Source: Listeria sp. PSOL-1 | GTDB taxonomy: Bacteria > Bacillota > Bacilli > Lactobacillales > Listeriaceae | DNA length: 64,000 nucleotides | Assembly: GCF_902806445.1 (NCBI RefSeq) | Contig: NZ_LR760298.1 | Location: forward strand, 682,001 to 746,000 | Direction of reading: 5' to 3' | Part shown: in pieces, positions 28,188-46,955 of the stretch | Position numbering within the stretch: the first letter of the stretch is position 1 | Layout of the letters: every line of letters starts with the position of its first letter | Made by a program: the position numbers and the translations under genes | The notes under the pieces: model-generated | Told to the model about the DNA's origin: nothing | Database searches by the model: none | Seen by the model: the letters and a program-made list of their open reading frames with translations, nothing else

Positions 28188-28640
28188 GTGCGTGTTTTAA
28201 TTCAAAGGTGTTTAGAAGCAAGTGTTACGATTGATGATGAGGTCATTGCTGAAATTGCCCAGGGCCTGACACTCTTTGTTGGCGTCACACATCAAGATAC
28301 TGAAAAAGAAGTCGATTATCTTGTAAAGAAAATTAGCAGCTTACGAATTTTTGAAGATGAAGCAGGAAAGATGAACCGCTCAATTACAGAAATTGAAGGT
28401 GATATTCTTTCAGTATCACAATTCACGTTATATGCAGATGCTAAAAAAGGTCGGCGTCCAAGTTTCATCCAAGCTGCTGAAAAAGAACAAGCAGAAGCTC
28501 TTTATGAACTACTGAACGAAAAGCTAGAAGACAGCGGAATCGGCATTGGACGTGGTGTATTTGGAGCAGACATGGATGTTCGCATTAATAACCATGGACC
28601 AGTTACCATAATGCTTGATACAGAAGAATTGTTGGACTGA
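28188..28640 (+). CDS. dtd: D-aminoacyl-tRNA deacylase
   Basis: A 150-residue DTD starting at GTG behind TTAGGAGG. Both family motifs are present: SQFTLYAD (SQxTL) near residue 78 and NNHGPVT (NxxGPxT) near residue 137. It hydrolyses D-amino acids, and glycine mischarged on tRNA-Ala, from tRNA. It is the last gene of the recJ-apt-relA-dtd run. Confidence 0.96.
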
Positions 28641-28666
28641 TCCTTACAAACAGAATAAAACAAAAA

Positions 28667-28716
28667 CAAGCTTTTCGTTTTGTAAATCTTACTAGACTTT
28701 CAAAACGAAAAGCTTG
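28667..28716 (-). terminator. Long perfect hairpin between dtd and the CRISPR array
   Basis: CAAGCTTTTCGTTTTG (28667-28682) pairs perfectly with CAAAACGAAAAGCTTG (28701-28716), a 16-bp stem with an 18-base loop. On the minus strand it is followed by TTTTTGTTTTATT, so it is a better terminator for transcripts from the CRISPR side than for dtd, though it could serve both. Confidence 0.75.
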
Positions 28717-28836
28717 AATTGTTGTGTTTGAAAAAGGCAGTTTATGATCAGGGGGTGAGTTGTAATGTTCTGTGATTTAAAGAACTTGTTTGTTCGAAAT
28801 AATGTAGTTCTAAAACTTATAGACATGATCTGATTT

Positions 28837-29004
28837 TTTTATAATAGATTCAAAACAACATAGCTCTAAAACACCACAATCTTCATTACTCAACACAAGC
28901 GTGTTTTGGAAGCATTCAAAACTACATAGCTCTAAAACAAATCCATTTGAGAAATATTTTCTAAAATAGTTTTGGAAGCATTCAAAACTACATAGCTCTA
29001 AAAC
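28837..29004 (-). CRISPR. Small type II-A CRISPR array (3 repeats, 2 spacers), no cas genes nearby
   Basis: Read on the minus strand, the 36-bp repeat begins GTTTTAGAGCTATGTA and ends GAATGCTTCCAAAAC, close to the Cas9-associated repeats of Listeria and Streptococcus. Identical copies lie at 28969-29004 and 28903-28938. A third at 28837-28872 has an intact 5' half and a decayed 3' half, as expected for the trailer-end repeat. The two spacers (28939-28968 and 28873-28902) are each 30 bp, the II-A norm. A weaker repeat-like remnant ending GTAGTTCTAAAAC (about 28781-28816) is only 20 bases further and may be an older decayed unit. No cas9, cas1, cas2, csn2 or tracrRNA anti-repeat is in this window. 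Confidence 0.93.
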
Positions 29005-29127
29005 CTCGTAGGACGTCCTAGTTCCCAAGGTTTCGTAATCGCGCCACTTGTCCATAGCAAGACTTCAGCTTGAATGCTTTTTATGATTTAGTCACTTCCA
29101 GTATTTAATAACGTCTAATTCATTATA
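29005..29127 (-). promoter_or_regulatory. CRISPR leader with anchoring motif and promoter
   Basis: On the minus strand the bases touching the first repeat are CTACGAG, matching the CTRCGAG leader-anchoring sequence used by one group of type II-A Cas1-Cas2 complexes. About 110 bases upstream is an extended -10, TGGTATAAT (hexamer at plus-strand 29122-29127), with only a weak -35. The array therefore keeps both adaptation and transcription signals. Confidence 0.75.
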
Positions 29128-29179
29128 CCATAGTTTCTAGAAATGCTAGAATATTTCTATTAAAATGACAGCGATTCAA

Positions 29180-29228
29180 ATAAAAAAAGAAACTCATCCG
29201 TAGCTTCATGAAAATCCGGATGGGTTCC
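29180..29228 (-). terminator. Terminator of the amidase gene
   Basis: Read on the minus strand, GGAACCCATCCG pairs with CGGATGAGTTTC (one mismatch), followed by seven T residues. Confidence 0.85.
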
Positions 29229-29235
29229 TTTTCTT

Positions 29236-30522
29236 TTAGTTAGCAAAATAATTTGAAAGGCCTTGGTAAACTGCTGTTGCTACGTGTTCACGGTAGCTTT
29301 TAGAATTGATTTTTTTCTCATCGCTTTTGGAACTTAGATAGCCAAGTTCAAGTAAGACAGCAGGTTGAGTGTTTTCACGAACGACATAGAAGTCACCAAT
29401 ACGAGCTCCACGGTTAGAAGTAGGAAGTTCTTTGCCTAGGCTTTGATTAATTGATTCGGCCAAGCTTTCATCTTTATTTTTGTAGTAGTAAGTCGTTTGT
29501 CCATGGACGCTTTTTTGATCTTCTTCAACGCTATCGAAATGTAGACTTACGAAAACATCTGCATGATATTCTTGGGCAATATTTGTGCGTGTTTTTAAAG
29601 AAACATATTCATCGCTTTCACGCGTCATAATCACTTTTGTACCGCTTTTACGTAATTTTTCAGCGAGGATTTTGGCCGTTTTTAATGTAGCTTTCTTTTC
29701 GATTGTTTCATCTGCACCTTTTGCACCGGGATCGTGTCCGCCGTGGCCGGGATCGATAACAATCGTTGCTTCAGACAAGCTTGTTGTTTTGGATTTTTCG
29801 ACAGGTGCAGCCTCTTTTGAACTTGAGATGTCGACTACCCAGTTTGCTACATAACCTTCTTTTCCGGAAGTTGTTGTGATTTTGTACCAATCGCCTTGTA
29901 CGCCATCAATGGAATAGCTTTGGCCAGAGTCGGCTTTTTCAATGACTGAACCATTTAAATTGGGCTTATTACGAATATTGGTTGCATTATCACGAATGGT
30001 TAATTTTTGTAGATTAGATCCGCTTGCTTTTGTGGTTGATTCGCGAATTTTGATGTATGAAGCATTTACCCAAGCATTTTGACCTTTGTACTGGATTTGA
30101 GCCCAACCATTTTGTTCACTAACGACATTAATTTGGTCACCAGTGTTTAACATACCAAGGCGTTCGCTGTCAGATGTTGGTTTTTTCCTGATATTTAAGC
30201 CACCGCTCGAAGTAACGACAGCGATACTATTACTTGCGGCGCTAACTTCGGTATTTTTTACTAACCAGCTGGCGACAAAACCAGTATTTCCATCTTTAAA
30301 TCTTACTTTGTACCATTTATTTTCTTCACCGATTACTTTTAAGACAGTATTTTTTCTTACTTGATGGGTTACATCATAAGCAAGTCCTGGGCCACTCCTG
30401 ACGTTGATAACTTCAGCTTGAACCGTCACTGTATTGGCATTTGCCATGGCAATGGTTGTCATAATTCCTGCAGCAATCAGTAAAAACGAAATAATGGTAA
30501 TCAATAACAAATTCTTTTTCAC
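29236..30522 (-). CDS. N-acetylmuramoyl-L-alanine amidase with SH3b repeats
   Basis: A 428-residue secreted or membrane-anchored wall hydrolase. A signal-anchor (residues 4-28) precedes three bacterial SH3 domains (about 32-93, 98-160 and 170-232; each has an INVRSGPG/LNIRKKPT/TNIRNKPN-type start and a WxxV/IxxxxGxxGWV-type end). An Amidase_3 catalytic domain follows (about 252-425) with zinc/catalytic residues in VIDPGHGGHDPGAKG, the glutamate in IEKKATLKTAK, the histidine in FVSLHFDS and the terminal glutamate in LLELGYLS. It cleaves the lactyl-alanine bond of peptidoglycan. It matches Listeria lmo1521 in position (dtd-amidase-hisS) and is divergent from hisS. Confidence 0.93.
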   Translation of the reverse strand: MKKNLLLITIISFLLIAAGIMTTIAMANANTVTVQAEVINVRSGPGLAYDVTHQVRKNTVLKVIGEENKWYKVRFKDGNTGFVASWLVKNTEVSAASNSIAVVTSSGGLNIRKKPTSDSERLGMLNTGDQINVVSEQNGWAQIQYKGQNAWVNASYIKIRESTTKASGSNLQKLTIRDNATNIRNKPNLNGSVIEKADSGQSYSIDGVQGDWYKITTTSGKEGYVANWVVDISSSKEAAPVEKSKTTSLSEATIVIDPGHGGHDPGAKGADETIEKKATLKTAKILAEKLRKSGTKVIMTRESDEYVSLKTRTNIAQEYHADVFVSLHFDSVEEDQKSVHGQTTYYYKNKDESLAESINQSLGKELPTSNRGARIGDFYVVRENTQPAVLLELGYLSSKSDEKKINSKSYREHVATAVYQGLSNYFAN

Positions 30523-36393: not shown

Positions 36394-36409
36394 GTTTGCT
36401 GTTTGTTAG

Positions 36410-36530
36410 TCTGAGGGCTCCTGCATTTTGAGCACAATAAATCGAGCGAAAGTGTTTGCATTGAAGAGGTTTGCCAGAAACCGGAAACTGTACGTGAGAA
36501 CCGGGAATTGGGCAAACCTTTTATTTTGTC
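36410..36530. repeat. Palindromic intergenic element, copy 3 (rarA terminator)
   Basis: It contains the family core AATAAATCGAGCGAAAG. Inside it AGGTTTGCC (36467-36475) pairs with GGCAAACCT (36511-36519), with a nested CCGG/CCGG, followed by TTTTATTTTG. It probably terminates rarA and marks the left edge of the island. Confidence 0.7.
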
Positions 36531-36545
36531 TGTCTTTTGGACTTA

Positions 36546-36906
36546 AATCCAGTGTTAAAAGCGAAATTTTCTGTTTTTATACACAGAAAATTCGTAAATA
36601 AAGAAAGAAATCGAATTCTAAATACATTTTATATTTTTTTTTAAAAGTAAACTTATATTATAGTAAAACTTTTTCACCGATAAGGAGGTGGACTCCATGT
36701 AAAATCGAAAGGAAGAAAAAGGATTAGCTAAACGTTCCAATACTCTAAAAATTTAGGTATATAGATTTTAATTTTTTGTTTGATCTGTTAATGAACATTC
36801 AAAGAAAAAAAGAAAGCGGTTTTATTCCTTTTGTTAGAGGGTGATCGTTCTAAAATTTAATTTAAAAGCATTAAACAAACTATTTTTATATGGGAGTAGT
36901 GAAAAA
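36546..36906 (+). other. Leader region of the island, with a start-stop mini-ORF
   Basis: This 360-base AT-rich stretch has no gene. It holds an inverted repeat (CGAAATTTTCTGT..ACAGAAAATTCG, about 36560-36594), a weak promoter-like TATAGT at 36659-36664, and a perfect ribosome binding site AAGGAGGTG (36682-36690) placed 6-8 bases before ATG-TAA (36697-36702). Beyond that TAA the same frame stays open for about 17 codons (NRKEEKGLAKRSNTLKI), so it may be a leader peptide with a nonsense codon or a true minimal ORF. Confidence 0.45.
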
Positions 36907-37956
36907 ATGTTTTGTATTGGAATACCGACGCTTAACGAAGCAGACAACATTGTTCAATTGACTAAGCAAATCGATCAATATGCACAAGAAATCGGCATAC
37001 AGATTATTTTAATTAATGCAGATAGCGGTAGTATAGACGGGACACCAGAAAAATTTTTACAAACAGAGACAAAATGTGAAAAAAGATCCTTTAAGCTTTC
37101 ACAACAAGGTAAAGGGAGAGCCGTTTTAAGAATCCTTAAGCACGCAGAAACGATTTCTGATCTTAAGGGGTGTTTGCTGATTGACGGGGATATTAAATCA
37201 TTAACACCTGCATGGATAAAGAAATTTACGGCTGCTTTAATCGACGGAGCGGATTACGTTCTCCCAAATTATAAGCGCAACTTTCAAGAGGGGAATACGA
37301 CAAATCATTTTGTATTTCCACTACTTACTTACCATTTTGGACAAGCTTGCCCAAGACAACCAATATCTGGTGATTGTGCTCTTTCTCTCCAGTTAATAAG
37401 AGCAGTACTTTCATCAGAAATAGCCTCACCTAGTGTTTTAAGGTATGGCATTGATATCTTTTTAACGCTAAATGCTTTATACGGAGCCTATACAGTGAAA
37501 GAGATTTCTTTAGATAAAAAAATTCACAATGCAAGCTTTTTAAAAATGGCAAAAATGTTTCCAGAAGTAGCAACATCGTATTTGAGTACATCTAGAAGTT
37601 TTTGGAATGATGATAAAACCCCTTCTGCACAAGTGAACAATGAATTACAACAGCAGATTTACTCCAATATGCACTTCTTAGATCCTAAAGATCCTATTGT
37701 TTATGAGAAAATTACTGATTTAGTAACAGGCTTTCCAGAGACAAAACAGCCATTCTCTTGGGCAAAAAAATTATGCGATTTTGAACAGGATAAGCGAGAA
37801 GATATTGATTCGATTGTGAAAGAATTGACACCATTTTTCCTAGTACAAGTAAAAAATTATTTATTAAAAATTCATAGCATTAAAGAAGCGAGGGAACACT
37901 TCTGTCAAGAAATTAATTCCCTGTTTCAATTATCCAATACAGAAATAAAAAAATAA
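36907..37956 (+). CDS. GT-A glycosyltransferase, GpgS/GT81-like (island gene 1)
   Basis: A 349-residue protein whose N-terminal half is a GT-A fold: IPTLNEADNI (6-15), INADSGSIDGT (36-46), the metal-binding DGD in LIDGDIKSL (93-95), GADYVLPNY, and RQPISGDCA (150-158), then RYGIDIFLTL near 180. The last set mirrors the RQPLSGE and GYGVEIGLL blocks of glucosyl-3-phosphoglycerate synthases. Such enzymes move glucose from an NDP-sugar to the 2-hydroxyl of a hydroxy acid. The C-terminal 110 residues are helical and unlike GpgS. The ATG at 36907 is chosen because the conserved fold starts there; an upstream GTG (36841) has no spaced ribosome binding site. The substrate is not known. Confidence 0.75.
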   Translation: MFCIGIPTLNEADNIVQLTKQIDQYAQEIGIQIILINADSGSIDGTPEKFLQTETKCEKRSFKLSQQGKGRAVLRILKHAETISDLKGCLLIDGDIKSLTPAWIKKFTAALIDGADYVLPNYKRNFQEGNTTNHFVFPLLTYHFGQACPRQPISGDCALSLQLIRAVLSSEIASPSVLRYGIDIFLTLNALYGAYTVKEISLDKKIHNASFLKMAKMFPEVATSYLSTSRSFWNDDKTPSAQVNNELQQQIYSNMHFLDPKDPIVYEKITDLVTGFPETKQPFSWAKKLCDFEQDKREDIDSIVKELTPFFLVQVKNYLLKIHSIKEAREHFCQEINSLFQLSNTEIKK

Positions 37957-38009
37957 ATCCGATGTGGAAGAGTCTTATTTATAATCAAGAAATATGGGGA
38001 TGATTAAAT

Positions 38010-38906
38010 TTGAGTAAATTACCAAGTTCATCATTAATTGGAAATCCAGTAAGTCATTCAGTATCCAATCTCTTGTTTAGCTATTTAGCGGAACTGACAG
38101 ATATGAAAGATTACAAGCATCAAAAAATGTTAGTAGAACATCTTTCAGCATTCGTTAAAACCGCAACGAAAAATGTAAGGTTTGGATATAATGTTACTTT
38201 GCCTTATAAAAGAGTCATCATGCCACTGCTTGATGATCTAAGCACCGAAGCCAAAACGATTGGCGCAGTGAATACCGTTATTTTTAGAAACGGTGAACAG
38301 GTGGGGTGCAATACAGATTGGTATGGCCTATATCAATCAATCAAAACATTCTATAAAGATTATCAGTCCATTGACAAGATTACAATATTAGGCACAGGAG
38401 GAGCTAGTCGAGCTGCGATCTACGCTGCTAAAAAGCTAGCTGCTAAAGTGGTAGTCGTTTATCGTGCTAATCCACTTAGTACAAATAGTCAGGAAATGAT
38501 GGAAGAAAGTAGCGAACTTGGTATTGAAATGGTCCCATATGACGCTTCAGTGCCGGCGATACGAACAAGCCAGTGTATTATTCAAACAACGTCAGCTGGA
38601 ATGATTGGGACAAATACTCAATTCCCTTTTGATGACGCAGTGTTAGCTGATCTTCTAAAAGATATTGGTAGTTGCAATTGTTATGTGGATGCTGTTTTTA
38701 ATCCAGTTGAAACTCCTACTTTGAAATTATTCAAAAATAGAGCGATGACAATTGATGGACTATGGATGATGATTTTTCAAGCGATCCAAGCACTATCTTT
38801 TTGGTCAAATAAGAATTTGAATTTTTCTACAAATGCATTAATAAGAGTACACAGACAATTAATGGCTGATATTAGCGCGTCAAATGAACCTAAGTATCAG
38901 GCTTAA
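38010..38906 (+). CDS. Shikimate dehydrogenase-family oxidoreductase (island gene 2)
   Basis: A 298-residue AroE/YdiB-fold protein. The substrate domain shows GNPVSHSVSNLLF (11-23), NVTLPYK with catalytic lysine 67, GAVNTVIF and NTDWYG with catalytic aspartate 103. The NAD(P) domain has LGTGGASRAA near 127. All catalytic residues of shikimate dehydrogenase are kept, but surrounding residues are divergent and the location among sugar and nucleotide genes suggests a polyhydroxy-acid or cyclitol substrate rather than the aromatic pathway. It starts at TTG, with GGGGATG upstream. It could instead make or use dehydroshikimate; the sequence alone cannot settle this. Confidence 0.82.
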   Translation: MSKLPSSSLIGNPVSHSVSNLLFSYLAELTDMKDYKHQKMLVEHLSAFVKTATKNVRFGYNVTLPYKRVIMPLLDDLSTEAKTIGAVNTVIFRNGEQVGCNTDWYGLYQSIKTFYKDYQSIDKITILGTGGASRAAIYAAKKLAAKVVVVYRANPLSTNSQEMMEESSELGIEMVPYDASVPAIRTSQCIIQTTSAGMIGTNTQFPFDDAVLADLLKDIGSCNCYVDAVFNPVETPTLKLFKNRAMTIDGLWMMIFQAIQALSFWSNKNLNFSTNALIRVHRQLMADISASNEPKYQA

Positions 38907-38960
38907 CGAAGAACACTGATAAATATAGATTACCACTACTGCGATAATAGGAGATAACAA

Positions 38961-40601
38961 GTGAAAACTTTTTTGAAAGAATATAAGACAGTTACGTTGA
39001 TAACCATTCTTTGCCGAGCAGTAGCTTCTATCTTAAAAGTGTTTACAGCTTTTTTTAGCGCTGACATGCTTAACAGTTTAGTGGAGAAAGAATATGATCA
39101 GTTTCTTATTTATACAGGATTATCTCTTCTTTTCTGGTTGCTTTTTGCCGTTTTTTATTATCTTTATCAATATTTAGCGGGAGTAGCTAGTCAGAAAATG
39201 ATCCAATCGATGAGGATGAAAATCTCACGCAATATTGCACACGCCAATATTGATAAAATTCATAAAACAAACACAGGAAAATTAGTATCTTGGATAACGA
39301 ATGATATGACCATTATTGAAAATCAATCATTGTCCCAGCTTTTTCTTGTAAGTGCAATCGTATTAGATACCATGTTTTCACTGATTGCGTTGTTCTCTTA
39401 TCATTGGAGCTTAATCCTATGTATTACTTTCTTTTCTATTTTTACCGTTTTTCTACCCCAAGTATTGAGTAGAAAACTAAAAAGAAAAAATAATGAAGTC
39501 GTTAACAACTATGAACAATTGAATAAGAAGGCAAGCGATCTATTTCATGGTTTCGATCTGTTATTTTTCTTTAATAGGACAAGCTTTATTGAAAAAGAAA
39601 TGCAGATGTTGAGTGAAAAAATGAAAACAGCCAAAATTCGTCTAACAGCAACTCAAGGTCAGATTACGGCACTGAGCACGCTTTCAAATGTTTTTAGCCA
39701 AATCCTCACGATGGCTTGGGCTGGATGGCTTTCGTATAGTGGGATAACAAGTATTGGCAGCGTAATCGCTATCAATTCATTAGGAAAGAATATATACGAC
39801 GGATTAATGAGATTAGCGCCAGCACTTGCAGATATTTACAGTATTTTTCCAATATATTCAAAGCATGCGCGTTTATCCTGCGACGAGGTAAACAACTTTT
39901 CAAGAAAAAAATTTTTAGAATTACCATCAACTAAAGAAGTCCCCATTATAGAGGCTACAGATATTACATGTAAGATTCATGATAGACAGTTATTCTTGCC
40001 TGCTACATTTAAACTTTTTCAAGGGCAAAAGTTAGCTTTAATTGGCCCATCTGGTATAGGGAAAAGTACATTGCTCCAAATGATGATAGGTGGAGTAGAA
40101 GCGGATCAGGGAAAGTTTTTCTATTGTGGAGAAGATATTTCTAAAATTGAAACAGCTACTTTAAGAAAGCATATTTTGTATTTTAATCAACATCCTTATA
40201 TTTTTGAGGACACAATACGAATGAACCTTACATTAGGTGATGACTACTCTGATCAAGTTATTTGGGATGCCTTGAAAAAAACAAAAATGGAAGAAGTCAT
40301 TTCAGCATTGCCTAAGGGATTGGATAGCTATTTAGGAAAAATGGGCAAAAGCTTATCAGGCGGGCAGTTACAAAGGTTGGCACTAGCTAGAGCTTTGATC
40401 CGAGAATATGATGTGATTTTATTAGATGAAAGTACCAATAGCTTGGACAAAGAGTTAGCCATTGAAATAGAAACAGAGCTTCTATCCAATCGTAAAATCA
40501 CGCTAGTTATGGTCACGCACCAAGTACACACAGAAAATATTGGGCTTTTTGATAGAGTCTATGAGTTGCTTCCTGCTGTACCACCATCTAAGAAGGCATA
40601 A
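38961..40601 (+). CDS. ABC exporter, fused membrane and ATPase domains (island gene 3)
   Basis: A 546-residue half-transporter: six membrane helices (about 10-290) and an ABC ATPase with Walker A GPSGIGKST (about 358), Q-loop YFNQHPYIFED, signature LSGGQLQRLALARAL, Walker B VILLDESTNSLD and H-loop MVTHQV. It would work as a homodimer. It starts at GTG behind TAGGAG. Its presence implies that the island's product, or a toxic intermediate, leaves the cell and that the transporter may give self-resistance. Confidence 0.9.
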   Translation: MKTFLKEYKTVTLITILCRAVASILKVFTAFFSADMLNSLVEKEYDQFLIYTGLSLLFWLLFAVFYYLYQYLAGVASQKMIQSMRMKISRNIAHANIDKIHKTNTGKLVSWITNDMTIIENQSLSQLFLVSAIVLDTMFSLIALFSYHWSLILCITFFSIFTVFLPQVLSRKLKRKNNEVVNNYEQLNKKASDLFHGFDLLFFFNRTSFIEKEMQMLSEKMKTAKIRLTATQGQITALSTLSNVFSQILTMAWAGWLSYSGITSIGSVIAINSLGKNIYDGLMRLAPALADIYSIFPIYSKHARLSCDEVNNFSRKKFLELPSTKEVPIIEATDITCKIHDRQLFLPATFKLFQGQKLALIGPSGIGKSTLLQMMIGGVEADQGKFFYCGEDISKIETATLRKHILYFNQHPYIFEDTIRMNLTLGDDYSDQVIWDALKKTKMEEVISALPKGLDSYLGKMGKSLSGGQLQRLALARALIREYDVILLDESTNSLDKELAIEIETELLSNRKITLVMVTHQVHTENIGLFDRVYELLPAVPPSKKA

Positions 40602-40623
40602 ATTTAATTAAGGAGTGTTTTTA

Positions 40624-41484
40624 ATGGCTATACAGTTAACGATCAACCTTGATGAAATTTCAGCAGATACAGCTTACGCGATGCGAGTTTTAAAAAAAAA
40701 TCATATCCATACGTGTGAATTAAGAACCATTGATGATCAAAATATTGTAACGCTGGATGTTGAAGCGATCAAGAAGTTAAAAAAACAACTCAATTCTTAT
40801 GATATTTCACCAATTGCTATAAGTAGCCCATTATTAAAGTGGTCTAGTAACAGAAGCAAAAATATCCCTTCCAATTTGGACTTGTTTGGAATCGATCAAA
40901 ACTTATCTAGCACGAAGAAAAACTTTTATATCGAGAATATACGCCAATTCGCTAATCTTCTTGAAGTTGATCGGATTAGAATATTCTCTTTTCTCGGGGA
41001 TATTGAATTTCCAGTTGAAAATTTATTTCAGGAACCTGACTTTCAACAAATTCTAACTGATCAATCTCATACGTATCTTATTGAAAATGAATTAGTTTGT
41101 TCAATATCTAGTCTATCAGAAATGACCAATCTAGCTAAAAAGATCACACAGTATAAGGCTAGCAATTTAGGGATTTGGTTAGATATTTCTAATTTATTTC
41201 AACTAGAAAAACAGATGACACTTCAAGATATTTATCCATTATTGCCACTTGTTAAGTATATTCACCTTAAGGACTATGTCTTCGATGCAAGTGGAGGCAT
41301 TCAGTATGTCCCTGTAGGTGATGGCATCATCCCGTATGCGGATTTATTACCAGAGATTATCCAAGAGATACCTACACAAAATAACGTGATATTAAGTATC
41401 GAAACACACGAGAAAAATCCAGACCGGAAAGAATATGCTTCACTCAAGTCATTTTATTTTATCAAAGAGATACTTAAGATTTAA
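40624..41484 (+). CDS. TIM-barrel sugar isomerase/epimerase-like protein (island gene 4)
   Basis: A 286-residue AP-endonuclease-2/xylose-isomerase-like barrel. The metal and active-site pattern is visible in the C-terminal half: LGIWLDISNLF, YIHLKDYV, the VGDGIIPYADLL glycine-aspartate-glycine turn, and ILSIETHE. The fold includes inosose dehydratase (IolE), hydroxypyruvate isomerase and 3-dehydroshikimate dehydratase, so epimerisation or dehydration of a keto-sugar or keto-cyclitol is likely. The ATG at 40624 has AAGGAG 9 bases upstream. It sits between the exporter and a Gfo/Idh dehydrogenase, a pairing common in sugar and inositol chemistry. Confidence 0.78.
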   Translation: MAIQLTINLDEISADTAYAMRVLKKNHIHTCELRTIDDQNIVTLDVEAIKKLKKQLNSYDISPIAISSPLLKWSSNRSKNIPSNLDLFGIDQNLSSTKKNFYIENIRQFANLLEVDRIRIFSFLGDIEFPVENLFQEPDFQQILTDQSHTYLIENELVCSISSLSEMTNLAKKITQYKASNLGIWLDISNLFQLEKQMTLQDIYPLLPLVKYIHLKDYVFDASGGIQYVPVGDGIIPYADLLPEIIQEIPTQNNVILSIETHEKNPDRKEYASLKSFYFIKEILKI

Positions 41485-41525
41485 AACTGACGATAAAGGT
41501 AATCACGATTTTAGAGAGGTGTAAG

Positions 41526-42500
41526 ATGAATAAAAAATTGTCTAAACGAGTATTAATGGTTGGCTTTGGAACGATGGGAAGAATCATGCTGAAGAAATGG
41601 CTCAATTATGTAGAAAACGTTGATGTCGTTGATATTAACCATGACCCTACCGAAAAAATATCAAAACGCGTTCAATTTTATTCCAGTTTAGAAAAGCTTA
41701 ACCAGGCCATTTCTCCTTCATTTTTTTATGATGTTGTCTATATATGTGTTCCTACTGATAAACATTTGCAAATTATTGAAGAACTTTTAATCGCAGAATA
41801 CCCGTTTAAAAAGATCCTAATTGAGAAGCCACTAACGAATGATATCCATGCTTTAAATAAAATTAATAACTTGGTTGAGAAATATTCACAAGTCGGGATT
41901 CAAGTATTTGTTCAAGAACAGTATTATCTTTCTAGTGCATTGGAAGCTTTGGAAATCATTTGCGGAACAAATGAGATTATCCAAATGGAGATCGAAATGT
42001 CTAAAGATCGAACATTGGATGAAGAAAAAGGAAGATTTAAGGATACAGTGCTTGGGACATTTGGAATTGAGTTTCCTCATATGTTAGCTATTTTGGATAA
42101 ACTTAACCTTCTTGAGCAGTTTGAAATTACAGATGTTGAATATCTTGAGCCAGATAGTTTCTACTCAGGGGTCACTGTTCAAGGTGAATCTAGTGGGATC
42201 AATATCATCTTAAAAAGCCATTTAGATGCAAAAAATATTAAGCGAAATGTGGCAATTACATCTGCTACAGGAGAGCAATGGGCTGCGTGGTTTGATCCTA
42301 TTCCTAATTTTTCGAGGTACTATTCTTCCATTTGTGACCAAACAGAAATCAATTATTTTTTTGATGATATGTTGGATCAAGTGGTACAACGAACACTCTC
42401 TGGACAATTGCCAACTTATTTTGATGTGTCCCATGCTAGTAAAATAGTAGATAAGCTATTCGCTTTAAAATGTCATAAAGGATTGATGGAGAAACCATGA
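41526..42500 (+). CDS. Gfo/Idh/MocA-family NAD-dependent oxidoreductase (island gene 5)
   Basis: A 324-residue protein with the Rossmann motif MVGFGTMGRIML, cofactor aspartate in VDINHD, VYICVPTDKHLQIIEEL and the family EKP motif (ILIEKPLTND, about 99-108). The C-terminal alpha/beta domain is less conserved; the usual D-x3-H catalytic pair is not obvious to me. Relatives oxidise or reduce sugars, cyclitols and UDP-sugars. It overlaps the next gene by 4 bases, so the two are probably coupled and may act in sequence. Confidence 0.8.
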   Translation: MNKKLSKRVLMVGFGTMGRIMLKKWLNYVENVDVVDINHDPTEKISKRVQFYSSLEKLNQAISPSFFYDVVYICVPTDKHLQIIEELLIAEYPFKKILIEKPLTNDIHALNKINNLVEKYSQVGIQVFVQEQYYLSSALEALEIICGTNEIIQMEIEMSKDRTLDEEKGRFKDTVLGTFGIEFPHMLAILDKLNLLEQFEITDVEYLEPDSFYSGVTVQGESSGINIILKSHLDAKNIKRNVAITSATGEQWAAWFDPIPNFSRYYSSICDQTEINYFFDDMLDQVVQRTLSGQLPTYFDVSHASKIVDKLFALKCHKGLMEKP

Positions 42501-43699
42501 AAAAAATAGCAGTTATTGGCCTTGGTTACGTTGGCCTAACACAAGCATTAGTTTTTTCAAAAAGCATCGCTGTTAGTGGTTTTGATAACGATGAGAAGAA
42601 GATCTTAGCGCTAGAAAAGCAGCAATATCTTACCTTAGAATCAAGAAATTGGGTCCACAAAGTTGGGAAGGAAAACTTAAATTTTTCTGTCAAGCATGTA
42701 GATAGCTTACTAGAAACAAGCTTTGACATCTACTTCATTTGTTTACCAACAGATTATTTAGCAGAAACAAAAAAAATGAATGTCACATCGATCGAGAAGG
42801 TAGTAAAGAGTATTGTTTCTGTTTATCCAACGGCGTCCATTGTTATTAAATCAACGGTTCCAGTTGGTTTTACAAAAAGTCTCAGTGAAAAATATCCTCA
42901 AGCAAACATTTGTATCATTCCAGAGTTTCTTAGAGAAGGCACTGCGATCTTAGATTTTGAACGGCCTGACCGGATTGTTATTGGTGGAGATCTTGAAAAA
43001 TGGTATCCACTTGAACAATTATACCTTTCAGTTATTCAAAAGAAAAATGTACCCATTCTTTATATGTCTGAAGAAGAAGCAGAGGCTGTGAAACTGTTTT
43101 CTAATGCCTATCTTGCTATGCGAGTCGCTTTCTTCAATGAACTTGATGAGTTTTCTCAGCAAAAAAATTTAAGATGCAACAAGATTATTCAAGGGATTTC
43201 TCATGATAAACGAATTGGGGATTATTATAATACGCCTTCATTTGGATTCGGCGGCTATTGTCTGCCAAAAGATACAAGGGCCTTGGTTTCGCTTATCGAT
43301 AAACAAACGAGTAAACTTATTCCTGCTATCATTGCTTCTAATGAGCAACGAGCCATCAATATTGCACTTAAGATTCTAGAAACTAAGCCTTCAGTTATAG
43401 GTGTTTATAGACTGACGATGAAAAAAGCAAGTGATAATTTTAGAGAAAGCCCATCAATTAAAATAATCAATTGTATTAAGTCGATATCGCCTAAGCAAGA
43501 GATTCAGATTTTTGAACCTTTACTAGATACTGATTTATTTAATGGAATGAAAGTTGTGCAGTCATTCCAATCTTTTCAACAAACAAGTGAGATTATTGTG
43601 GCTAACTATTACGACGAAGATCTCAAAGAAGTCGTTGGGAAAACGTTTACAAGAGATCGTTTCTTAGAAGAACTAATTTGTGAGGAGGAAAAGATATGA
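42497..43699 (+). CDS. UDP-glucose/GDP-mannose dehydrogenase-family protein (island gene 6)
   Basis: A 400-residue nucleotide-sugar dehydrogenase: NAD motif IGLGYVGL (7-14), VIKSTVPVGFT (116-126), IPEFLREGTAILDFERPDRIVIG (141-163), conserved lysine and asparagine in AVKLFSNAYLA (K199, N203), and the catalytic cysteine 255 in FGGYCLPKDT. The full set of UDP-glucose 6-dehydrogenase residues is present, so a two-step oxidation of a CH2OH to a carboxylate is expected, probably on an NDP-sugar. It overlaps both neighbours by 4 bases. In this setting it probably supplies a uronate or aldarate unit. Confidence 0.88.
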   Translation: MKKIAVIGLGYVGLTQALVFSKSIAVSGFDNDEKKILALEKQQYLTLESRNWVHKVGKENLNFSVKHVDSLLETSFDIYFICLPTDYLAETKKMNVTSIEKVVKSIVSVYPTASIVIKSTVPVGFTKSLSEKYPQANICIIPEFLREGTAILDFERPDRIVIGGDLEKWYPLEQLYLSVIQKKNVPILYMSEEEAEAVKLFSNAYLAMRVAFFNELDEFSQQKNLRCNKIIQGISHDKRIGDYYNTPSFGFGGYCLPKDTRALVSLIDKQTSKLIPAIIASNEQRAINIALKILETKPSVIGVYRLTMKKASDNFRESPSIKIINCIKSISPKQEIQIFEPLLDTDLFNGMKVVQSFQSFQQTSEIIVANYYDEDLKEVVGKTFTRDRFLEELICEEEKI

Positions 43700-44448
43700 C
43701 AGAAACTGGAATTCAAATCATAGGTATCCATGATTTACCTTCAGTTACCGCAGCAACTAATTTACTGGATTTTATTGAGCTAGGGATAAAAAGCCTTAAC
43801 CAATTACCTGCTGATGGGGATATCCTTTGTGTTGCTTCTAAAGTTGTGTCCATTTGTGAAAATAGGGTAATCAAGCTAAATGATGTCACACCATCAGATG
43901 TTGCTATCAAAATTCAGCGTGACTTTATTCCACGTAAAGATCCTCGTGTTATTCAAATTATTTTAGAACAAACTGGAGATTTAAGTGGTGAAAGAGTGGA
44001 GGTAAAGAAAGATTACATTGCTGGTTGGCTTCCTAATGGTAATAAGTTAACGAGCGCAGGCGTGGATAAATACGGGGACGAAGCTGTAGTTGTTCTTCCA
44101 GAAGATCCGGATTTAAGCGCACAACGAATATCAAACTTTTTATCTGAACGATATAAGAAAAAAGTGGCTGTTATCATCACAGATAGCGATGGACGCGAAG
44201 AAAAAATTGGCGCCACACAGATAGCTATTGGGCTTTTTGGGTTACCTGCTTTAAGAACAAACGCTAATTCACCCACTGAAAAAAAACCGAAAGAGACACT
44301 TTGTGATCTGCTAGCTGCTTCAGCTGCACTTGTAATGGGACAACGTGGTACAGGGGTTCCCTTAGCGGTTATTCATGGTTTAGATTTTACATTTGATCCT
44401 ACGAGCAAAATTTCAGATGCCCTTCATTCAAAAAATGATCTTAGTTAA
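43696..44448 (+). CDS. CofE-like (F420-0:gamma-glutamyl ligase family) amide ligase (island gene 7)
   Basis: A 250-residue protein covering the whole F420_ligase domain: GDILCVASKVVSICENRVI, a KDPRVIQIILEQ helix, NKLTSAGVDKYG, LPEDPDLSAQRI, VAVIITDSDGREEKIGATQIAIGLFGLPAL and a final GQRGTGVPLAVIHGL. CofE uses GTP to join glutamate to the carboxylate of F420-0. Listeriaceae do not make F420 and no other F420 gene is here, so it probably joins an amino acid to the acid made by the preceding dehydrogenase. The HHG that precedes the aspartate in true CofE proteins is replaced by a WLPNGN segment, suggesting a changed substrate. It overlaps the gene before it by 4 bases. Confidence 0.82.
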   Translation: MTETGIQIIGIHDLPSVTAATNLLDFIELGIKSLNQLPADGDILCVASKVVSICENRVIKLNDVTPSDVAIKIQRDFIPRKDPRVIQIILEQTGDLSGERVEVKKDYIAGWLPNGNKLTSAGVDKYGDEAVVVLPEDPDLSAQRISNFLSERYKKKVAVIITDSDGREEKIGATQIAIGLFGLPALRTNANSPTEKKPKETLCDLLAASAALVMGQRGTGVPLAVIHGLDFTFDPTSKISDALHSKNDLS

Positions 44449-44499
44449 GTAACAATAAAAAAATTTATAAAATATACGGAGAACGGAGTGGAGATATAT

Positions 44500-45741
44500 A
44501 TGAATATTTTTTATGATAATAACCTTATTCTTCCATCAGACAGCGCATACGAGGTAGTAGAAAGAAAAGGATTAGGACATCCCGATACATTAGCAGATGG
44601 TTTAGCTGAAGCGACTGAACTAGCCTATTGCCAATACTGTTTAGACCATTTTGGTGTTATCTTACATCACAATCTTGATAAATTAATGATTCTTGGTGGA
44701 TTAAGTCAACAAGTTTATGGTGGTGAGGCTTTTTCTAAACCAATTCGAGTGGTATTTATGGGGCGTGCAAGTACGTCGTATAATGGCGAGCCAATCCCTT
44801 TGTTTGAAATACAAAAAAAAGCAGCACAAGATTATCTAGCACGAATATTGCCACATCTTGATGTTAATGATCCAAATATGATCCAATTCGAATCTTTAAC
44901 TAGTGACCGCAGCACTCGTGAAAATTGGTTTTCTCCCCAATCGCTAGAAGATCTACCTGAATATAAAGAAAATCCAGTGGCAAATGATACAGCAGCAATG
45001 ATTAGTTACTGGCCATTAACAATCGCTGAACAATTAGCACTTAAAATTGAAGGGTACTTCTATCGTGATAATGAATCTGGCTTACCAGAACCTCGCTTTA
45101 AGGATATTGGACAAGATATTAAAGTAATGGTTATTAGAAATGACAACTGCTACAATGTAACCGTTGCTTTGCCATTAGTTACAACGCTTACTAAATCAAA
45201 AGAGGCTTACATGGCAAGGTTAGATGAAATGGAAAATGAAATTAGAGAATATATTGCGGATGCATTCCCTAGTGAAGATATCAAAATTATTGTCAATACA
45301 GTTAAGGATAAAAAAGAACGCAGATTTTATATGGTAACAGCTGGATCTGCCATCGACTTTGGCGAAGAGGGTGCTGTAGGTAGAGGAAACAAAACCCACG
45401 GAGTGATTGCTTCTTTACGACCTAACACAATGGAAGCACCTCAAGGGAAAAATCCTACTTACTTTGTAGGAAAAGTACTTGGTTATGCAACAGATCAACT
45501 CGCCAAAAAAATCTATGAAGAAACAAAACAACCTTGCGTCGTTGTGATGGAAGTAAATAACGGAGATCCATTATTTTCACCTTCTAAAATCATCATTTCA
45601 ACCAAAGCAGAAATCGATCAAAAGAAAGTAGATGCCTTAGTAGAAAGCATATTTTCAGAGGGAAGAAAAATAACAAGTCACATTGTATCCAGCAAATATT
45701 TTCTTCCACGAACTGACACTTTTAAACTAGGGGGTAAGTGA
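44500..45741 (+). CDS. Archaeal-type S-adenosylmethionine synthetase family protein (island gene 8)
   Basis: A 413-residue member of the AdoMet_Synthase (archaeal MAT) family, unrelated in sequence to bacterial MetK. Visible blocks are VERKGLGHPDTLADGLAEA (20-38), HHNLDKLMILGG, PIRVVFMGRAS, EEGAVGRGNKTHGVIASLRP and MEAPQGKNPTYFVGKVLGY. The ATP-binding blocks are kept, but the usual RPMSMEAAAGKNPVSHVGK is changed in several positions. Real archaeal MATs move the C5' adenosyl group of ATP to methionine sulfur. The host should have its own MetK, and the island has no methyltransferase, so transfer of adenosyl to another nucleophile is possible. The ATG at 44500 has GGAG 6 bases upstream; an in-frame GTG lies 12 bases earlier. 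Confidence 0.88.
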   Translation: MNIFYDNNLILPSDSAYEVVERKGLGHPDTLADGLAEATELAYCQYCLDHFGVILHHNLDKLMILGGLSQQVYGGEAFSKPIRVVFMGRASTSYNGEPIPLFEIQKKAAQDYLARILPHLDVNDPNMIQFESLTSDRSTRENWFSPQSLEDLPEYKENPVANDTAAMISYWPLTIAEQLALKIEGYFYRDNESGLPEPRFKDIGQDIKVMVIRNDNCYNVTVALPLVTTLTKSKEAYMARLDEMENEIREYIADAFPSEDIKIIVNTVKDKKERRFYMVTAGSAIDFGEEGAVGRGNKTHGVIASLRPNTMEAPQGKNPTYFVGKVLGYATDQLAKKIYEETKQPCVVVMEVNNGDPLFSPSKIIISTKAEIDQKKVDALVESIFSEGRKITSHIVSSKYFLPRTDTFKLGGK

Positions 45742-45742
45742 G

Positions 45743-46693
45743 TTGGCTCATCAACTGCCTACACTTAACTTTAGCGGTATAAAAATAGCAATCGATACGC
45801 TCATACCTGGAGTCTATTCACACATTCAAAATTTAAAAGAAAAAATTGGACTGTATAAAAGCACTGAAGAAAGCGAGATCATTGCTTCTGCTATCGTTGT
45901 TTTTGAAACAGCCGATTCATTTCAGGCATCTTTTTCACCAACGACCAATAAATTAACAATAAGCGGGCCATTTCAATCAGGCAAGCTAACGACTTCAATG
46001 TACTATGCTTGCGAGTATTTAGCAGAATCCCTATTAACTTGTGAAAATCATAGTGTTTTGATACATGGAGCAGCGATTTATTCTGACCAAATGAAAGCCG
46101 CCCAGTTGATTTTAGGTGAAAAAGGCGCAGGGAAAACATCGCTCACTTTAACACTTTGTAAACAAAAAGGATATCAACTTATTGGGAATGATGTTGTGCG
46201 CTTACGGCTAATTGATTCAAATCTATATACAGAAGGAGGGAGTGACTGGTTTCTTGTCAGGAAAACAGCAGTTCATTCATCAGAATGCTTATCATTTCTT
46301 AAACCAGCATTTGAAGCTTCTTCCAAAAAACAACTCGATGAATGGGATATTAAAAAAAGAATCACGCCTTCTGAAATAGGAATTGGAACATTTCAAACGT
46401 TAGCCCCATTAAAAAAGTGCGTTTATATTCGGATCGATCATCACCAAAGTCATGTTTATCAGAACTTATGGGAAAATGAACAAAAGCAGCTCATTCTTTT
46501 TGAAAACATTGGTCGGCGGATGAATAATCAAACGACACCATTTTTGGATCATAATGGCTACTTTTGGGGAGATCTTCCGCTAATAAAAAATGATGAAAAT
46601 CGTAAAGTTAGAAATGAAATCATGGCTGCTTTTGATAAAATGCCCATCCAAAAAATGTTTGCTAATTCATGCGAGGCATTAGCATCATTATAA
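45743..46693 (+). CDS. HPr-kinase-like P-loop kinase (island gene 9)
   Basis: A 316-residue protein. After a divergent N-terminal half, it has SVLIHGAAIY, Walker A GEKGAGKTS (125-133) and GYQLIGNDVVRL with acidic residue D150, the pattern of HPr kinase C-terminal domains and the HprK-related kinases found in biosynthetic clusters. It lacks the N-terminal domain and the P-tip motif of true HPrK, so HPr is an unlikely substrate. A role in phosphorylating a small molecule or intermediate is inferred. It starts at TTG one base after the preceding stop, with GGGGG upstream, and is the last gene of the island. Confidence 0.72.
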   Translation: MAHQLPTLNFSGIKIAIDTLIPGVYSHIQNLKEKIGLYKSTEESEIIASAIVVFETADSFQASFSPTTNKLTISGPFQSGKLTTSMYYACEYLAESLLTCENHSVLIHGAAIYSDQMKAAQLILGEKGAGKTSLTLTLCKQKGYQLIGNDVVRLRLIDSNLYTEGGSDWFLVRKTAVHSSECLSFLKPAFEASSKKQLDEWDIKKRITPSEIGIGTFQTLAPLKKCVYIRIDHHQSHVYQNLWENEQKQLILFENIGRRMNNQTTPFLDHNGYFWGDLPLIKNDENRKVRNEIMAAFDKMPIQKMFANSCEALASL

Positions 46694-46716: not shown

Positions 46717-46745
46717 TTGAAATCCATATTAAAATATGCTATCCT
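46717..46745 (+). promoter_or_regulatory. Promoter of 6S RNA
   Basis: TTGAAA (46717-46722), 17 bases, then the extended -10 TGCTATCCT (hexamer 46740-46745). The transcript would start at about 46752. Confidence 0.85.
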
Positions 46746-46751
46746 AAGGAA

Positions 46752-46955
46752 AGTAGAGAAACCCTAATGTATTCGTTATAATTCCTATATATTTGAACCG
46801 AACAATTATTTAGACCTTGGGAGCTTGGCGTTCAGATGCAGCGCACATGCCTTTACACGAGGACTTGCAAAACGTTTGGCAGAGCACCCACCTGCTTTTT
46901 CTGCGGGTTCAAAGGTTAGGAATCCTAAAAACGGTACGATTGGGGTTTCTTTTTT
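46752..46955 (+). ncRNA. ssrS: 6S RNA
   Basis: The roughly 200-base transcript folds as one long rod with a central bubble. AGAAACCCTAAT (46757-46768) pairs with ATTGGGGTTTCT (46939-46950), ATTCCTA (46781-46787) with TAGGAAT (46917-46923), and TTTGAACC (46792-46799) with GGTTCAAA (46906-46913). It ends in six T residues and has a strong SigA promoter. 6S RNA binds SigA-RNA polymerase as a promoter mimic in stationary phase. Its place in the cymR-rarA-iscS neighbourhood agrees with other Bacillales. Confidence 0.88.

Follow-up and report, generated by a model that had tools for sequence, protein, structure and literature searches.

Introduction

Thuringiensin, an insecticidal exotoxin, follows an adenosine-glucose-diacid-phosphate logic and is assigned to the cluster thuA-G and thu1-4; in the part of the source available to us the gene list contains neither a methionine adenosyltransferase (MAT) nor a CofE protein, and the roles of ThuF and Thu1 in assembly are assigned by deduction only (PMC4147579). 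Adenomycin, a Streptomyces nucleoside, is described as adenosine ether-linked through C5' to inositol, with an additional sugar (PMC6540904). In the open-licence literature no paper was found that identifies an enzyme forming the adenosine C5' ether of a natural product. Here we describe a nine-gene island of Listeria sp. PSOL-1 whose central gene encodes a protein of the archaeal-type MAT family; it lies within a stretch of 64,000 nucleotides (hereafter the window), which is positions 682001-746000 of a genome consisting of a single contig of 2.10 Mb. The island is best explained as a mobile, conserved operon making an exported adenosine-containing small molecule. That it is a conserved biosynthetic operon is close to certain; for the operon and adenosyl transfer to a hydroxyl acceptor taken jointly, we put the probability at a little under one half (roughly 0.47).

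The genes of the island

Nine consecutive open reading frames (ORFs) occupy positions 36907-46693 of the forward strand, each encoding 250-546 amino acids and free of internal stops, and chance can be dismissed as their source because of their length and conservation. Their products are as follows.

36907..37956, forward strand: glycosyltransferase (GT) with the fold of mannosylglycerate synthase (MGS), with likeness to GpgS as well; predicted acceptor, a 2-hydroxy acid
38010..38906, forward strand: AroE-like dehydrogenase (PF08501, 69.6 bits)
38961..40601, forward strand: ABC exporter half-transporter, membrane and ATPase parts (PF00664 and PF00005, above cut-off)
40615..41484, forward strand: TIM-barrel protein, sugar isomerase/epimerase-like (PF01261, 37.6 bits; the start may be ATG 40624)
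41526..42500, forward strand: Gfo/Idh/MocA-type NAD(P) oxidoreductase (PF01408, 46.4 bits)
42497..43699, forward strand: UDP-glucose-dehydrogenase-like (UGDH-like) enzyme (PF03721, PF00984; TIGR03026, 285.4 bits against a cut-off of 189.8)
43696..44448, forward strand: CofE-like ligase of the F420-0:glutamate ligase family (PF01996, 143.5 bits against a cut-off of 25)
44488..45741, forward strand: MAT-like protein of the archaeal-type S-adenosylmethionine (SAM) synthetase family, a predicted adenosyltransferase (PF01941, 274.8 bits; the start may be ATG 44500)
45743..46693, forward strand: HprK-like small-molecule kinase with a P-loop (profile and fold evidence)

From the first gene to the ninth, the intergenic distances are 53, 54, 13, 41, -4, -4, 39 and 1 bases; 4-base overlaps are thus found in two pairs (Gfo/UGDH-like and UGDH-like/CofE-like) and the remaining gaps are of 1-54 bases, bearing out the compact same-strand arrangement proposed in an earlier, sequence-only reading of this DNA. 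The listed ORF of the first gene opens at GTG 36841, and ATG 36907, with GGGAG upstream, is preferred as its start. The GC content of the island genes, 0.329-0.388, is overall only slightly lower than that of the remaining window (0.376).

The gene families named in that reading were confirmed by Pfam and NCBIfam with two amendments, in that the GT model is closer to MGS than to GpgS, and the HprK-like protein scores 19.8 bits in Pfam against a cut-off of 33.3. Since the latter match falls under the cut-off, profile and fold evidence was needed: the protein has the catalytic-domain fold of HprK/P together with a P-loop, H108 and D150 are nearly invariant in an alignment of 24 rows, and its HG and ND stretches are, we presume, the motifs of HprK/P. 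It differs from HprK/P in its Pfam score and in being found within biosynthetic operons, a genomic setting which argues that its substrate would be something other than the serine of HPr. The GT, by fold comparison, belongs with the MGS/GpgS glycosyltransferases; it is 13-14% identical to MGS (2y4m/2bo4) and 23-26% identical to GpgS, the latter over a shorter part, and it keeps the GKG and DxD motifs plus the Thr and His of the columns that align with GpgS. The likeness to both enzymes is thus one of fold and motifs, and both known enzymes act on 2-hydroxy acids.

The AroE-like gene is one of two PF08501 genes in the genome (the other, at contig position 747647, scores 105.6 bits), and K67 and D103 are invariant across the 14 rows of its family alignment. 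In the TIM-barrel protein E157, D190 and H217 are invariant and E263 is nearly so (16 rows), and its profile matches include the structures of AsbF, IolI, Art22 and UlaE. The top NCBIfam match of the Gfo/Idh/MocA protein is inositol 2-dehydrogenase, at 37 bits and far under its cut-off, whilst the UGDH-like protein contains GGYCLPKD, which we take to be the catalytic motif. Shikimate chemistry, suggested by the AroE-like enzyme alongside an AsbF-like TIM barrel, was provisionally set aside because the TIM-barrel and Gfo genes persist without AroE beside the MAT gene in two loci (L006 and L007).

Distribution and co-inheritance

Four aligned MAT-like proteins served as query for a scan of the GTDB contigs, and the best 80 of 355 relatives were kept by MAT similarity alone; these 80 loci (numbered with the prefix L) include near-duplicates, which were counted separately. 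Family profiles were seeded with the window proteins and built from matches in the same loci, and those for Gfo and TIM, being narrow, miss annotated neighbours and return low counts. An HprK-like gene was found in 37 of the 80 loci, GT in 33, CofE in 32, TIM in 23 and AroE in 17, and 34 loci hold at least two of HprK-like, GT and CofE. Eight of the nine window families (AroE, TIM, CofE, Gfo, MAT, HprK, GT and UGDH) were detected by tblastn in each of five loci, L010-L013 and L016, which come from Macrococcus carouselicus, Streptococcus pseudoporcinus, two further streptococcal records and one metagenome-assembled genome (MAG). The profiles add Patescibacteria, Actinomycetota, MAGs of clostridia and bacilli, and one alphaproteobacterial MAG, often with one gene or another missing. 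The Streptomyces plasmid L008 carries TIM, Gfo, MAT, HprK-like, GT, CofE and AroE in a row, and a second such plasmid, L004, has this set minus AroE; on a Halorussus plasmid there are TIM, Gfo, AroE, MAT, GT and HprK-like genes, and CofE was not found.

The pairwise distances of MAT, HprK, GT and CofE correlate at 0.88-0.96 over 27 loci, a set that excludes L002, L016, L045, L053 and L055 as the window itself or near-duplicates, and for each pair none of 2000 permutations gave a correlation as high; the genes move as a unit. The island genes are a co-inherited unit across phyla. Co-occurrence elsewhere had been chosen beforehand as the test on which the sequence-only reading could fail, and the genes do co-occur in other genomes; no paper describing this gene set was found in the open-licence literature, a weak form of absence, and the proposal of a so far unrecognised pathway that brings its own exporter is thus supported. 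With respect to export, the window has its ABC exporter, L013 an MFS gene, and L012 and L016 relatives of the latter.

Within the host genus the distribution is patchy, as only one of 25 genomes carries the island MAT in a search with that protein; another genome, G003, encodes a MAT 31% identical to it in a different setting. The fold of the GT, and the presence of a UGDH-like enzyme in L010-L013 and L016, would suit a compatible-solute or cell-surface glycan operon of mannosylglycerate-like type, which has recruited side enzymes and whose product is free of adenosine. We consider this improbable: the patchiness and the plasmid copies fit specialised metabolism instead, and we know of no role for MAT, CofE or HprK partners in solute pathways.

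Several loci show further arrangements of these families. A third MAT-linked set is present on the Streptomyces plasmids L006 (11021-18168) and, in a like stretch, L007, comprising GT, MAT, TIM barrel, Gfo/Idh/MocA, an AAA or hypothetical protein, a carbamoyltransferase and NUDIX, without CofE. A plasmid of the endosymbiont Candidatus Megaera polyxenophila (L107, 5935-12699) has, consecutively, a MAT-like gene, a xylose-isomerase-like gene, NUDIX and four oxidoreductase/dehydrogenase genes. The Micromonospora version of the operon (L022, 3240-11158) includes a radical-SAM/B12 protein and a 3-dehydroquinate-synthase-like gene. On a Lactobacillus amylovorus plasmid (L005, 11965-12690) a lone CofE-like gene, 47% identical to that of the window, adjoins NUDIX and is possibly a remnant, with tet(W) about 5.5 kb beyond it.

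The MAT-like protein

In TkMAT, His33 is catalytic, Asp201 contacts the ribose, Tyr271 stacks on the adenine, Asp283 holds both the ribose and the amino group of methionine, and His62, Asn64 and Asn161 form the triad for the methionine carboxylate (PMC3853416). The window protein exceeds the curated cut-offs of the family (PF01941, where the cut-off is 27 bits, and NF003362, 487.6 bits against 481), and its H31, D210 and Y281 correspond to His33, Asp201 and Tyr271, all of which are kept; among the aligned rows His33 and Asp201 are conserved in 69/69 and Tyr271 in 68/69. The position of Asp283 is occupied by Glu293. This residue is Glu in all 34 rows of the clade to which the window protein belongs (SH-aLRT 97 by a quick tree method) and Asp in all 35 other rows. 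The MAT-like protein thus belongs to a clade with an altered substrate site.

The change at this position goes together with a change of genomic context. Over the 80 loci there are 36 with Glu and 44 with Asp; the former have HprK-like genes in 33 cases, GT in 33, CofE in 31, TIM in 23 and AroE in 17, the latter HprK-like in four, GT in none and CofE in one. Counted another way, GT or CofE lies within the fetched stretch in 35/36 Glu loci against 1/44 Asp loci, in which the CofE gene is 7 kb off, and the sole Glu locus without either is L063, a contig of 3.3 kb. Labels and tree are not in full agreement: L020, assigned to the core by its HprK-like neighbour, is not in the clade, and two loci labelled as other, L102 and L063, belong to it. 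The ‘archaeal MAT’ group was defined by ourselves and includes four proteobacterial plasmid rows, though as a group it forms a single supported branch. As for the carboxylate triad, it is intact in 7/7 rows of the TkMAT and MjMAT branch and in 19/23 of the ‘other’ rows, and broken in 9/34 clade rows and in 6/6 rows linked to Ino1 (see below), so that the methionine site is under changed constraint in the family. Transfer of C5' from ATP by this protein, as put forward in the sequence-only reading, has circumstantial support from the kept His, ribose Asp and Tyr and the clade-wide replacement of Asp by Glu.

This should be considered with caution, as the same protein could be an ordinary SAM synthetase feeding methylation or another SAM-using step of the pathway, making adenosine in the product unnecessary, and a number of observations weigh on that side. 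All catalytic residues are kept, the window protein also retains the methionine-carboxylate residues H60, N62 and N166, and its residues alone would not prove a loss of methionine use; the replacement of Asp by Glu is conservative, and the NF003362 score of a methionine adenosyltransferase, if barely, is reached. The WFxP loop of the clade is also present in 20/23 ‘other’ rows and is therefore not clade-specific, and the 34-row clade may have arisen only once, so that its agreement with genomic context would amount to a single observation. Methyltransferase genes adjoin in L011 (FkbM) and L102. A bacterial metK was not seen in six of 19 other host genomes tested, all of them MAGs of 0.5-1.5 Mb, and in those six the MAT-like protein could be the sole MAT. 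A further point against the main reading is that the full set of nine is not universal, as the UGDH-like gene is present in 5/80 loci, and in the other mapped loci the core lacks an adjoining ABC exporter, with ABC matches further out in several. On balance we nevertheless regard an ordinary SAM synthetase as unlikely, given that a standard metK is present in the host (and in the remaining 13/19 genomes), that no SAM-using enzyme was found among the families of the island or the shared core, and that the clade has both its uniform Glu and its broken triads. Housekeeping SAM synthesis is likewise disfavoured by the metK of the host.

Relatives linked to Ino1

An archaeal-type MAT (E 1e-60 or better) is encoded in four of 395 genomes of the order, that of the window and three others, and the three others cluster with an Ino1 (Inos-1-P_synth) gene, adjacent in two cases and one gene away in the third. 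The same pairing occurs on a Parageobacillus plasmid and in two actinobacterial loci; Ino1 is thus present in L103, L115-L117, L059 and L074 and is absent from the window island. All six Ino1-linked clusters contain HprK-like genes, although for the four from Bacillota the profile scores are weak (36-56 bits). Two of the clusters contain a DegT aminotransferase (Pfam-confirmed). The pair of MAT and HprK-like kinase is therefore common to a cyclitol and a glycosyl-acid type of cluster. One of the six, L115 (7175-12682), is from G003 of the window's own genus and comprises Ino1, archaeal-type MAT, DegT aminotransferase, SDR and HprK-like genes; it possibly encodes an aminocyclitol-adenosine pathway.

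A proposed pathway

The reaction types proposed here follow from knowledge of the families, whilst the adenosyl acceptor, the order of the steps and the product are inferred. The Gfo/Idh/MocA, TIM-barrel, AroE-like and UGDH-like enzymes would use oxidation, enolisation and reduction to form a sugar, a cyclitol or a sugar acid, and the MGS/GpgS-like GT would place a sugar on the hydroxyl of a 2-hydroxy acid; in L018 a LarA-like hydroxy-acid racemase domain sits between CofE and GT. The carboxylate of that acid could then be capped with an amino acid by the CofE-like ligase, much as phospholactate is in F420-0. On the MAT-like protein, C5' of ATP would be attacked by a glycoside or polyol hydroxyl, which takes the place of the sulfur of methionine, yielding a C5' ether and triphosphate. 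The HprK-like kinase would phosphorylate a hydroxyl, either as the final step or for self-protection, and in the O-adenosyltransferase reading it might use the released pyrophosphate; the ABC exporter would secrete the product. The likeliest product is thus presumed to be an exported, phosphorylated glycosyl-hydroxy acid, amide-capped and bearing adenosine through C5'. Glycosylation, amidation and phosphorylation, all anticipated in the sequence-only reading, are in circumstantial agreement with the MGS fold of the GT, a CofE-like protein in a host with no cofG match, and the HprK fold, respectively.

An acceptor other than a hydroxyl would lead to a different product. Were the nucleophile a non-methionine amino acid, or an intermediate reacting through its amine, thiol or carboxylate, a SAM-like, ester- or amine-linked compound would result; the carboxylate-binding residues, intact in 25/34 clade rows, suggest an acidic acceptor, and Glu at position 283 could pair with an altered group. 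The partner enzymes belong, however, to sugar and polyol families, and neither sulfur-transfer enzymes nor aminotransferases are represented in the window island, so we rate this possibility below that of an ordinary SAM synthetase.

Returning to transfer onto a hydroxyl, a wider proposal can be made, if only tentatively and with the odds somewhat against it: one branch of the archaeal-type MAT family may have evolved into O-adenosyltransferases, which would link C5' of ATP to the hydroxyl of a polyol or glycoside and would usually be accompanied by an HprK-like kinase. The two operon types (Ino1 cyclitol; MGS-like GT plus CofE glycosyl-acid) may then be the way in which nucleosides with a C5' ether are generally made, adenomycin among them and perhaps also thuringiensin, across bacteria, Patescibacteria and haloarchaea. 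The MAT-like family, a single family with a conserved active-site signature and set partner genes in 36/80 loci (some near-identical), is a candidate for the C5'-ether enzyme and may explain the origin of a rare nucleoside type. We regard the island as a biosynthetic operon of a new family, and there is a real chance that the activity of its central enzyme is new as well. Hosts of the operon include ultra-small Patescibacteria, and it is also carried by an archaeal plasmid, settings in which, to our knowledge, specialised metabolites are little known.

Insertion site and surroundings

The gene order rarA, 6S, iscS, mnmA, TPR gene and recD2 is, we assume, that of Bacilli such as Listeria. The island is a clean insertion between rarA and 6S-iscS, as had been proposed, since relatives keep these genes close together and its borders map to the rarA stop and the 6S promoter. 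The spacing from rarA to iscS is at most about 300-400 bases in 11/11 other same-genus loci fetched (from 24 other genus genomes in which rarA was found), 6S lies between the two in 4/4 loci scanned, and sequence comparison places the right border immediately before the 6S promoter and the left near the rarA stop. The 6S RNA itself is located at 46758-46950. The borders are marked by two features.

36394..36906, no strand: left junction and leader of the island, directly after the rarA stop; nothing corresponding lies between rarA and 6S in four relatives
46717..46745, forward strand: promoter-like element of the 6S RNA (TTGAAA-17-TATCCT), marking the island's right border; found by promoter scan, with a similar element before 6S in four relatives

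No direct repeats were found when the 447-base left leader and the 70-base right flank were compared for shared words of 10-20 bases. None of 165 pattern-matching IMG/VR stretches encodes a relative of the island proteins, and PADLOC gave zero matches to defence systems for eight of the nine proteins, that is, all except the ABC exporter. Within the leader, positions 36682-36702 contain a minimal ORF made up of a start and a stop codon (ATG TAA) and preceded by a strong ribosome-binding site (AAGGAGGTGGA). Elsewhere in the window, two CRISPR repeat copies (Rfam CRISPR-DR22) with one spacer lie at 28903-29004, and partial copies can be seen by eye upstream; the stretch looks like an orphan mini-array, as ORFs of at least 100 amino acids are absent from 28640-29236.

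Comparison with known systems

The MAT-like protein resembles TkMAT and MjMAT in matching the family over its full length and in having the catalytic His, the Asp for the ribose and the Tyr that stacks on the adenine, and departs from them in the Glu that replaces Asp283, a rebuilt flexible loop, its separate clade and its redundancy with the metK of the host. The CofE-like ligase shares with CofE its Pfam family and the matches by sequence to solved structures (2phn, 7uld and 2g9i, E 1e-19), and differs in scoring 148.3 bits with TIGR01916, the F420_cofE equivalog, under the cut-off of 180.65. F420 synthesis was rejected as its function, since cofG is without a match in the host and the top cofD match is 20.2 bits against a cut-off of 257.45.

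With thuringiensin, the island has in common a UGDH, a GT and a small-molecule kinase, and in the Streptococcus loci an AMP-binding plus carrier protein adjoins, cf. the Thu2 protein, which resembles a non-ribosomal peptide synthetase (PMC4147579). A homologue of the thuringiensin pathway is nonetheless very improbable, as both the MAT and the CofE of the island are missing from the thu gene list in the part of that source available. Among the matches listed for MAT, CofE, HprK-like and GT against 72,556 plasmid records (for CofE, 30 of 55 matching records were listed) there is no B. thuringiensis record, a search for which the presence of the thu plasmid in the collection was not checked. Kinship with the thuringiensin locus is thus not upheld, and for these same reasons the parallel is one of logic only.

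Adenomycin was compared by product chemistry. Its adenosine-cyclitol C5' ether is the type of linkage to be expected from a MAT-like O-adenosyltransferase. The window island has no Ino1, and it is the Ino1-linked clusters of MAT and HprK-like genes that could fit adenomycin-type chemistry.

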